Origin: Xanthobacteraceae bacterium
Lineage (GTDB): Bacteria; Pseudomonadota; Alphaproteobacteria; Rhizobiales; Xanthobacteraceae
Assembly: GCA_019750915.1 (NCBI GenBank)
Contig: JAIENY010000014.1
Coordinates: forward strand, 1-64,000
Direction: 5' to 3'
DNA length: 64,000 nucleotides
Part shown: positions 31,610-34,328 of the stretch, piece after piece
Position numbering within the stretch: position 1 is the stretch's first letter
How the letters are laid out: each line of letters starts with the position of its first letter
Made by a program: the position numbers and the translations under genes
The notes under the pieces: generated by a model
What the model saw: the letters and a program-made list of their open reading frames with translations, nothing else
Database searches by the model: none
What the model was told of the DNA's origin: nothing

Positions 31610-33211
31610 ATGTCACAGTACGACGCGATCATTATTGGCGCCGGTCACAACGGGTTGACTTGTTCGGCCTACCTCGCCATGAGCGGCTTGAAGGTGAAGG
31701 TGGTCGAGCGGCGCAAGGTGGTCGGCGGCGCCGCGGTGACCGAAGAATTTTTTCCGGGCTTTCGGAACTCGGTCGCGGCTTACACCGTCAGCCTGCTGAA
31801 CCCACGGGTGATCGCGGACCTCAATCTCGCCTCGCACGGGCTGCGGATCGTCGAGCGGCGTGCGCAGAATTTTGTTCCCTCGCCCGGCGGATCATATCTG
31901 CTGACCGGCGAAGGCCGCACCCATCAGTCGCTGGCGAAGCTCAGTGAACGCGATGCGCTGCGGATCGATGAATTCAACCGCGAGCTTGAAATCGTCGCGG
32001 ACGTGCTGCGCCAGTTCATCCTTCGCGCGCCGCCGAACGTGGTCGAAGGCTTCAGCCTGAATGCGCTGCGCGAGGGCTTCAACGCGCTGGAAACAGGCAA
32101 CATCCTGCGCCAGCTTTCAATCGAGCACCAGCGCCTGCTGCTTGACCTCTTCACACTGTCGGCGGGTGACATCCTCGACGAATGGTTCGAGAGCGATCTG
32201 TGCAAGGCGCTGTTCGGGTTCGACGCGGTGGTCGGCAACTATGCAAGCCCTTATGCCGCAGGCTCCGCCTATGTGATGCTGCATCATGCGTTCGGTGAGG
32301 TGAACGGCAAGAAGGGCCTGTGGGGTCATGCAATCGGCGGCATGGGCGCGATTACGCAGGCGATGGCCAAGTCAGCCCGCGCCTCTGGCGCCGAGATCGA
32401 AACCGGCGCGGCCGTGCGCACGGTGCTGGTCGATGATCGCCGTGCGGTGGGGGTCGCCCTGGAGAATGGCACGGAGATCCGCGCGCGTTATGTCATCTCC
32501 AATCTCAATCCGAAGCTGCTTTATACACGGCTGATGCCCGAAGGTTCGTTGCCCAAGCCCTTTGCCGATCGCATCGCGCGTTATCGCAACGGCTCCGGCA
32601 CCTTCCGCATGAATGTCGCGCTTTCCGCGCTGCCGTCTTTCAGCGCGCTTCCCGGACACGGCGATCACCTGACCAGCGGCATCATCATGGCTCCGGGCCT
32701 CCGCTATATGGACCGTGCCTATCAGGACGCGCGGACTTACGGATGGAGCCGGGAACCCATCGTCGAAATGCTGATACCCTCCACTCTCGACGACAGCCTC
32801 AGCCCATCCGGGCAGCACGTCGCAAGCCTGTTCTGTCAGCACGTCGCGCCGGAATTGCCGGACGGCAAATCGTGGGACGACCACCGCAACGAGGTCGCCG
32901 ACCTGATGATCGCCACCGTGGATCAGTACGCGCCGGGCTTTGCCCATAGCGTGATCGGCCGGCAGGCGCTGACACCGCTCGATCTCGAACGCGAGTTCGG
33001 GCTGATCGGCGGCGATATCTTCCATGGCAAACTCACACTCAATCAGTTGTTCTCGGCGCGGCCGCTGCTCGGCCATGCCGATTTCCGCGGGCCGCTGAAG
33101 GGCCTCTATCATTGCGGCTCGGGCGCGCATCCCGGCGGCGGCGTGACCGGCGCGCCGGGCTTCAATGCAGCCCAGACGGTGCTGCGCGACCACCAGGGGA
33201 TTTTCCTGTGA
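31610..33211 (+). CDS. FAD-dependent oxidoreductase, PYROXD2/CrtI-like
   Basis: 533 residues. N-terminal FAD loop IIIGAGHNGLTCSAYLAMSGLKVKVVERR, then VVGGAAVTEEFFPGFRNS, and C-terminal LYHCGSGAHPGGGVTGAPGFNAA, the fingerprint of the phytoene-desaturase-like PYROXD2 group. No carotenoid genes are nearby, so carotenoid synthesis is unlikely; the substrate is unknown. The TGA stop at 33209-33211 is directly followed by the DnaA-box-like array. Confidence 0.82.
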   Translation: MSQYDAIIIGAGHNGLTCSAYLAMSGLKVKVVERRKVVGGAAVTEEFFPGFRNSVAAYTVSLLNPRVIADLNLASHGLRIVERRAQNFVPSPGGSYLLTGEGRTHQSLAKLSERDALRIDEFNRELEIVADVLRQFILRAPPNVVEGFSLNALREGFNALETGNILRQLSIEHQRLLLDLFTLSAGDILDEWFESDLCKALFGFDAVVGNYASPYAAGSAYVMLHHAFGEVNGKKGLWGHAIGGMGAITQAMAKSARASGAEIETGAAVRTVLVDDRRAVGVALENGTEIRARYVISNLNPKLLYTRLMPEGSLPKPFADRIARYRNGSGTFRMNVALSALPSFSALPGHGDHLTSGIIMAPGLRYMDRAYQDARTYGWSREPIVEMLIPSTLDDSLSPSGQHVASLFCQHVAPELPDGKSWDDHRNEVADLMIATVDQYAPGFAHSVIGRQALTPLDLEREFGLIGGDIFHGKLTLNQLFSARPLLGHADFRGPLKGLYHCGSGAHPGGGVTGAPGFNAAQTVLRDHQGIFL

Positions 33212-33218
33212 AGAATCC

Positions 33219-33284
33219 TGTGGACAAGCTGTGGATAACCTGTGGATAAGCGGTGGGTATTCTGTTGATCGCTTGTGGACGTTT
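33219..33284 (+). repeat. Six in-phase 11-bp repeats resembling DnaA boxes
   Basis: Units starting at 33219, 33230, 33241, 33252, 33263 and 33274 read TGTGGACAAGC, TGTGGATAACC, TGTGGATAAGC, GGTGGGTATTC, TGTTGATCGCT, TGTGGACGTTT. Units 2 and 3 contain the exact DnaA box TGTGGATAA (TTATCCACA reversed), unit 1 has one mismatch, units 4-6 match about six of nine. All face the same way, one helical turn apart. A further near match, TGTGTATAAGC, is at 33332-33342 (out of phase). The array begins 8 bases after the upstream stop. Roles could be DnaA binding for replication, DnaA titration or regulation of prmA. Confidence 0.7.
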
Positions 33285-33299
33285 GCCGGAACGAAAGAC

Positions 33300-33326
33300 G
33301 ACCGTGCCTGTGCAAAAGGCACGGTC
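33300..33326 (+). other. Hairpin between array and prmA
   Basis: GACCGTGCCT and AGGCACGGTC pair perfectly (10 bp) across a seven-base loop. No T-run follows, so it is not a clear intrinsic terminator; it may end the oxidoreductase transcript or be a binding site. Confidence 0.5.
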
Positions 33327-33416
33327 GAAACTGTGTATAAGCCGCTTATAAGCCTTTGATGTTCCTGTGCCGATCATGTGTATCGATTTCCGCAACGCGT
33401 TGTTTTCGTGACCTTT

Positions 33417-34328
33417 ATGAACAGCCTCGACGTCTCCAGCACCATGACGGCCCCCACCCATCGCGCCTCCTGCGCTGCTGGCGATGAGCGCACCGCAAGC
33501 CGCATCGTCGATTTGCTGTCGGAGACATTCGACGGCGACGAGGTCGCTGTGGCCGCGTTCGAGCGGCCGGACGGGCAATGGGAGGTGACGCTGTATTTTG
33601 CCGCGCCGCCGGATGAGACCGCGATCCGCGATCTGATTCAGCTTTCGACGAGCCGCGAGTTGGCGGCGTCGATGAGGTTCGACGACATTGCCGCGCAGGA
33701 CTGGGTGAAATCGAGTCTGGAAGGCCTTGTCCCGGTCGAGGCCGGCCGATTTATCGTTCACGGTCATCACGATCGCGACCGGATCGCGCCCAACAAGCTC
33801 GGCATTGAGATCGAGGCCGCGCTCGCTTTCGGCACCGGCCATCACGGGACGACGCGAGGCTGCCTGTTGTTGCTGGATCAGGTGCTGCGCCTGCGCATGC
33901 CCAAGCGCGTGCTCGATCTCGGCTCCGGCACCGGCGTGCTGGCGATCGCGGCGGCCAAGGCGATGCATCGGAAAATTCTCGCCAGCGATATCGATCCGCG
34001 TTCAACGATTGTCGCGGCCGAAAACGCACGGTTGAACGGCGTGGGCGAATATGTTGAATCCATTCACGCGACCGGCTTTGCCTCGCCGCGTTTCGCCGCC
34101 ATGGGACCGTTCAGCCTGGTGATGGCAAATATTCTGGCGAACCCGCTGAGAAAACTCGCGCCGGAAATGTCAGCGCATCTGGCGCCATCAGCCTTCATAA
34201 TCCTGTCGGGATTGCTGCCCCATCAGGCGCGCGGCGTGATCGCGGCCTATCGTGGCCAAGGCGTGCGGCTGATCCGCAGGCTCCAGCTCGACGGCTGGAC
34301 CAGCCTGCTGATGCAGCGCATGGGTTAG
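33417..34328 (+). CDS. prmA: Ribosomal protein L11 methyltransferase
   Basis: SAM-dependent methylation of ribosomal protein L11. 303 residues. The SAM site VLDLGSGTGVLAIAAAK, the family feature FGTGHHGTTRGCLLLLD just before it, and MANILANPLRKLAPEM after it all match PrmA. The start is unclear: ATG at 33417 (used here), ATG at 33444, or GTG at 33378; none has a good ribosome site. It follows the DnaA-box-like array; its stop overlaps the stop of the convergent small gene at 34325 by four bases (TTAG). Confidence 0.9.
   Translation: MNSLDVSSTMTAPTHRASCAAGDERTASRIVDLLSETFDGDEVAVAAFERPDGQWEVTLYFAAPPDETAIRDLIQLSTSRELAASMRFDDIAAQDWVKSSLEGLVPVEAGRFIVHGHHDRDRIAPNKLGIEIEAALAFGTGHHGTTRGCLLLLDQVLRLRMPKRVLDLGSGTGVLAIAAAKAMHRKILASDIDPRSTIVAAENARLNGVGEYVESIHATGFASPRFAAMGPFSLVMANILANPLRKLAPEMSAHLAPSAFIILSGLLPHQARGVIAAYRGQGVRLIRRLQLDGWTSLLMQRMG

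Follow-up and report, generated by a model that had tools for sequence, protein, structure and literature searches.

The chromosomal sinks and reactivators of the initiator protein DnaA have been worked out mainly in Escherichia coli. The datA locus of this organism stimulates the hydrolysis of ATP-DnaA and needs IHF, which has a site between the DnaA boxes. The DARS sites, which have a core of three boxes in mixed orientation, act by the release of ADP from DnaA and are under the control of Fis and IHF. For Alphaproteobacteria, to our knowledge, accounts of initiator control mostly concern CtrA, HdaA and the turnover of DnaA. Extra-origin clusters of DnaA boxes are also known in Bacillus and Streptomyces, and those of Bacillus subtilis and Streptomyces coelicolor are described in passages of PMC5742627 as analogous to datA and as repressing untimely initiation; the Bacillus clusters are oriC-proximal according to the title of Okumura 2012, which is cited there. 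Within the E. coli oriC, low-affinity DnaA sites are arranged in one direction with 2-bp spacers and support a progressive loading of DnaA (excerpts of PMC4451416).

The locus described here is a cluster of putative DnaA boxes upstream of prmA in a Xanthobacteraceae bacterium (assembly GCA_019750915.1, contig JAIENY010000014.1). The window is the whole stretch of 64,000 nucleotides that was analysed, and the genome from which it comes is a 3.35-Mb draft that is 83% complete. DnaA-box clusters outside oriC are a known kind of locus; what is new about this one is its phasing, its direction, its single main address and its lineage. Among the literature matches listed, which are open-licence papers, there is no report of an array beside prmA.

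Boxes and register of the window array

The array is located between two genes on the plus strand. Upstream lies a flavoprotein gene (31610..33211) with a Pfam match to PF01593 Amino_oxidase, which we take to be PYROXD2-like following the preliminary description, and downstream lies prmA (33417..34328, PF06325), which encodes the ribosomal protein L11 methyltransferase. The gap of 205 bp given in the preliminary description holds for a prmA start at the ATG of 33417; the first start given by the ORF caller is the GTG at 33378. As read from the sequence, the array begins on the stop codon of the PYROXD2-like gene, which is overlapped by the box-like 9-mer TGTGAAGAA (33207..33215, two mismatches to TGTGGATAA). 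This is followed by the box TGTGGACAA (33219..33227, one mismatch), by two exact copies of TGTGGATAA (33230..33238 and 33241..33249) and by three degenerate units in register (33252..33282, with starts at 33252, 33263 and 33274) which have three mismatches each and are possible low-affinity sites. Further downstream are the box-like TGTGCAAAA (33309..33317, two mismatches) and the box TGTGTATAA (33332..33340, one mismatch). A script listing of 33207-33340 places all nine TGTGGATAA-like 9-mers on the plus strand. It bears out the preliminary description of six units from 33219 on that are exactly 11 bp apart on one strand, the second and third being exact, the first carrying one mismatch and the last three matching at about six of nine bases, together with a further near-copy at 33332. 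Tandem Repeats Finder reports a period of 11 for 33218-33256, and the outer boxes approximately continue the 11-bp register with steps of 12, 35 and 23. TGTGGATAA is the reverse complement of TTATCCACA, the high-affinity DnaA box in E. coli and B. subtilis, and the Caulobacter DnaA box is given as TGATCCACA (both in passages of PMC4285127).

Between boxes inside the array lies a hairpin of 11 pairs (33299-33327), which has a T-containing tail on the minus strand and encloses TGTGCAAAA; one such hairpin is found where 0.4 are expected. Structured RNA as the identity of the array is rejected, as Rfam gives no match up to E 1 for 33000-33600 of the window.

The array is beyond chance, as had been claimed on first inspection: the gap, 170 bp as measured, has a forward box score of 13 against 0.7 expected, a value reached by none of 200 dinucleotide shuffles. 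The whole draft genome contains six exact copies of TGTGGATAA, of which two are in the array, and one exact tandem pair. When same-strand clusters within 150 bp are scored with 4, 2 and 1 points for boxes with zero, one and two mismatches, 1,692 clusters are found in 1.264 Mb that comprise the window and 60 stretches of the relatives G004 and G028. Only three of these score above 3, namely the window array with 14 and the arrays beside prmA in G004 with 12 and in G028 with 10, the latter two lying on stretches that were deliberately included in the sample, and the rest score 1 to 3. Boxes with at most one mismatch are not unusually frequent in the window (7 against 4.7 expected, with 22 of 100 shuffles reaching 7). 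What is unusual in the window is the clustering and phasing of the boxes and not their plain count.

The array is nearly unique within the genomes searched. The pattern TGTGGATAANNTGTGGATAA, with up to two mismatches, has 17 matches in 16 of 34 chosen genomes, of which 16 are in the PYROXD2-prmA gap and one is elsewhere (G189); the other 18 are without a match at this stringency, and the reversed TGTGGATAANNTGTGGATAA control has none in all 34. Similar arrays elsewhere, on whose scarcity the preliminary description had made its reading depend, are rare in these genomes.

Conservation and gene arrangement in relatives

Upstream regions of prmA were gathered at 81 loci within the genus and the family. 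A PYROXD2-prmA gap can be recognised in 70 of these, which represent 12 genera. The other 11, which are left out of the gap counts, are L074, L075 and L120-L127, which have no PYROXD2 match, and L018, in which the match ends at residue 350. Over the 70 gaps, which come from related and non-independent genomes, the summed forward-strand box score is 623 against 43 expected from dinucleotide shuffles, whereas the reverse-strand score, which like the forward score counts boxes with up to two mismatches, is at chance level (17 against 23 expected). The real score is never reached by 200 shuffles in 64 of the gaps. In the other six it is reached by 33 (L088), 12 (L010), 2 (L078) or 1 (L031, L096 and L119) of the 200, and L088 and L010 are not significant. 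Most adjacent boxes are separated by steps of 11 or 12 bp or by near multiples of these, and the distances between box pairs of up to 160 bp have a period of 11.3 bp (R 0.88, 826 pairs). With one genome per genus R is 0.83 for 180 pairs, which are not independent of each other, against a maximum of 0.26 in 2,000 random sets. The keeping of an 11-bp type of spacing in relatives had been named beforehand as a test and is found, and the conservation and phasing of the putative boxes strongly support the earlier suggestion that the array would be a site of DnaA assembly. Between the 12 genera all 19 gap alignments listed are no longer than 62 bp and several are in shifted registers, which indicates that the sequence of the array turns over while its phase and direction are kept.

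A scan of named genomes used the best 80 of at least 560 relatives of prmA. The 34 closest of these are mostly Bradyrhizobium, together with Afipia, Tardiphaga, Rhodopseudomonas and unassigned bins, and 30 of them have a same-strand cluster with a score of at least 4 in the 2.5 kb that precede prmA, while L160, L161, L162 and L179 fall short of this score. The 46 more distant relatives, nearly all Hyphomicrobiales, include four with a cluster score of at least 4 (L184, L196, L204 and L207), and no forward PYROXD2 match was found at any of these 46 loci. The same-strand clusters at the four loci are weak and are located upstream of prmA without PYROXD2; they are perhaps an older form of the array.

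The genes around the array have no fixed arrangement. Gaps of more than 450 bp make up 32 of the 70, and their ORFs vary. Among them are a minus-strand Flp/Fap pilin gene (PF04964) and genes of the DUF1330, ABC substrate-binding and outer-membrane barrel types, as well as a secreted-looking ORF on the minus strand and a membrane-protein-like ORF on the plus strand, neither of which has a Pfam match. In 24 of these long gaps no more than 150 bp separate the first box from the end of PYROXD2, and in 15 the last box is as near to prmA, with both ends near in 11 and neither in four. In G003, G005 and G008 the majority of the boxes remain beside PYROXD2, the two boxes of G005 (L010) not being significant, and at L074, L075 and L148 the array is upstream of and close to prmA, with no PYROXD2 found in the fetched stretch. 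What is conserved is the array, more than the pairing of the genes. The array persists where other genes separate its neighbours and therefore probably serves neither PYROXD2 nor prmA.

This arrangement bears on the alternative that the array is a DnaA-regulated promoter, at which bound DnaA would repress or activate prmA or another gene of the gap and so tie ribosome modification to the cell cycle. The array is positioned directly before prmA in the genomes with short gaps, including that of the window, it remains near prmA at the three loci where PYROXD2 was not found, and in Caulobacter the hdaA promoter has up to six DnaA boxes (passages of PMC3193534). However, the last box is near prmA in fewer of the long gaps than the first box is near PYROXD2, the ORFs held by these gaps differ, and a search of the window gap gave no sigma-70-like promoter (0 against 0.2 expected, a weak test). 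The control of prmA by DnaA, which had been one of the options raised at the outset, is weakened by boxes that are often away from prmA where other genes separate the neighbours, and the promoter explanation is considered rather unlikely.

Other motifs were sought in the 36 gaps of up to 300 bp. The perfect E. coli-type IHF consensus, WATCAANNNNTTR, occurs in none of these against 0.1 expected, the 34 longer gaps being left out and the consensus being that of E. coli. Full CtrA sites are present in one of the 36 gaps, the CtrA half-site-like TTAACC occurs 18 times against 2.8 expected in 12 of them, and GANTC is depleted with 7 occurrences against 27 expected (both relative to mononucleotide shuffles). 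In genus g26 (L102 and L104-L107) the boxes form two groups, one after the PYROXD2 stop codon and one close to prmA, with a small ORF between them.

Position relative to the replication origin

The GC skew flips at about 3.16 Mb in G004 and about 2.96 Mb in G028, at the PPSR gene, which places the switch 1.05 Mb and 1.29 Mb, respectively, from prmA. On either side of prmA the sampled skew has the same sign in both genomes, with one stretch of G028 at 2.0 Mb, about 0.33 Mb from prmA, being near zero (+0.004). The ORFs at the switch comprise PPSR/DUF299, which is confirmed by PF03618, and genes that we take to encode a HemJ-like membrane protein, Rho and MnmE. PPSR is presumably a neighbour of oriC in Alphaproteobacteria, an assumption with which the skew agrees in G004 and G028 only. 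Measured from PPSR, prmA is at 0.41-0.74 of the replichore and 0.82-2.07 Mb away in 26 genomes, some of whose lengths are rounded, and in all of these its transcription runs head-on to the fork. This orientation is not claimed to be selected, since symmetric inversions preserve it. For position hemE served as the control, and in six genomes its distance from PPSR is 0.48-0.67 of the replichore; it is about equally stable, so that the mid-replichore position of the array need not be selected and is not claimed to be so.

The landmarks named in the preliminary description, dnaA, hemE and the skew switch, were all located in relatives. The skew switch is at PPSR, hemE is rejected as an origin marker by the distances given above, and dnaA is only an approximate marker (26 genomes, in which 0.055-0.165 of the replichore separates it from PPSR). 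The window genome itself yields no dnaA match at E 1e-50, for which the incompleteness of the draft is the probable reason. The array is located neither at the GC-skew switch nor in the conserved origin neighbourhood, and its identity with oriC is rejected by the skew of two genomes and by the position of PPSR. Being far from oriC, the array does not start replication, and the option that it is linked to the origin finds no support in the two relatives sampled.

The boxes upstream of prmA were compared with those in 1.5 kb beside PPSR in 19 of 20 genomes, G156 having no prmA locus and G004 and G028 being outside the set. The mean of the best 250-bp box score is 7.9 upstream of prmA versus 4.4 beside PPSR (Wilcoxon p 0.002, 19 genomes). 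The prmA side scores higher in 15 genomes, the PPSR side is higher in G050 (2 versus 5) and G176 (4 versus 7), and G003 and G110 are ties. At the skew switch the best clusters score 6 in G004 and 4 in G028. Three weak boxes 10 bp apart were seen by eye near the PPSR start of the skew-switch origins (about 1077-1105 in L147 and about 16297-16324 in L134), a spacing which differs from that of 11.3 bp at prmA.

A census of 198 genomes of the family with the pattern TGTGGAWAAN{1,4}TGTGGAWAA has matches in 21, one in each. Twelve of these are within 1.6 kb upstream of prmA (genera g1, g19 and g26), six are about 1.4 kb from PPSR and hence from the presumed oriC (genera g2, g13 and g18, with G040 counted as circular), that of G168 is 6.6 kb from PPSR, and those of G201 and G074 are on contigs other than the one with PPSR. 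The same pattern thus also detects presumed origins, and the six matches serve as a positive control. Pairs of TGTGGAAAA in tandem, separated by 3-bp spacers, are located about 1.4 kb from PPSR in G040, G079, G045, G076, G099 and G029, and it is probable that they mark oriC in genera g2, g13 and g18.

Possible roles in the control of DnaA

Like datA of E. coli, the array is a non-coding cluster of DnaA boxes outside oriC and beside ordinary genes. Unlike datA, which is near oriC, it is tandem, one-directional, phased at 11.3 bp and located in mid-replichore, and it is not filed as datA because the E. coli-type IHF consensus is absent from the 36 gaps of up to 300 bp. Like the extra-origin clusters of Bacillus and Streptomyces it consists of conserved, clustered DnaA boxes away from the site of initiation, and it differs from these in being one main mid-replichore site with regular phasing in another phylum. 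The low-affinity arrays of E. coli oriC have in common with it the single direction and the 2-bp spacers, which amount to 11-bp steps (excerpts of PMC4451416), and in contrast to them the array is away from the origin and includes exact boxes.

The array may be explained as a conserved, gene-independent site for a DnaA oligomer, most likely a sink like datA or the clusters of Bacillus and Streptomyces, and judged by its sequence this explanation has about an even chance of being correct. A titration site like datA, as proposed in the preliminary description, would be the best option that remains, with the missing IHF consensus counting against it. It is proposed that DnaA, probably ATP-DnaA, would form a one-directional oligomer on 33207-33340, which would be nucleated by the two exact boxes and would extend as the weaker units in register are filled cooperatively, as in the low-affinity arrays of E. 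coli oriC. By binding DnaA, and perhaps by helping to inactivate it, the array would lower the level of free initiator. The copy number of a mid-replichore array would double in mid-S phase, and this doubling could couple fork progress with how much DnaA is available when replication is next initiated. More tentatively, the array may represent an undescribed alphaproteobacterial locus of DnaA control, a one-directional filament track of 11.3-bp steps at one main mid-replichore site, maintained for its own sake, which would sense the passage of the fork midway through S phase and reset the pool of free initiator. Titration alone, hydrolysis as at datA and recharging as at DARS are not distinguished by sequence.

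Recharging would make the array a DARS-like site, at which bound DnaA swaps ADP for ATP and the initiator is re-armed in mid-cycle. When the replichore fractions are halved the array is at 0.20-0.37 of the chromosome, unlike datA and in better agreement with DARS2 at 0.21 and DARS1 at 0.33 in E. coli (passages of PMC5010248), and the region around box V of DARS2 has a head-to-tail cluster of ATP-DnaA (excerpts of PMC10380432). However, the boxes of the array are tandem and, at the mismatch level tested, run in one direction only, those of the reverse strand being at chance, and this layout argues against DARS and leaves such a role improbable. A similarly low probability is given to the array being bound by a different protein, or being a repeat without function whose likeness to DnaA boxes is accidental. 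The boxes are indeed putative, graded and degenerate, but the array contains exact boxes of the high-affinity type, the same pattern recurs at presumed origins, the phase is kept as the sequence turns over, and there is no Rfam match in 33000-33600. A secondary or ancestral origin, for which it could speak that genera g2, g13 and g18 have matching tandem boxes at about 1.4 kb from PPSR, is highly improbable given a skew that keeps its sign across prmA in G004 and G028, apart from the one near-zero stretch of G028, and flips at PPSR.

The array is common to a dozen genera, has one defined address and in most of the genomes compared holds more boxes than the origin on the PPSR side. As a site for a DnaA oligomer it could show whether loci for the titration or recycling of DnaA are general, and its clean spacing would make it a natural substrate for DnaA polymerisation on double-stranded DNA. 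The array is possibly a parking or switching site for the initiator that helps to set when the chromosome is copied.
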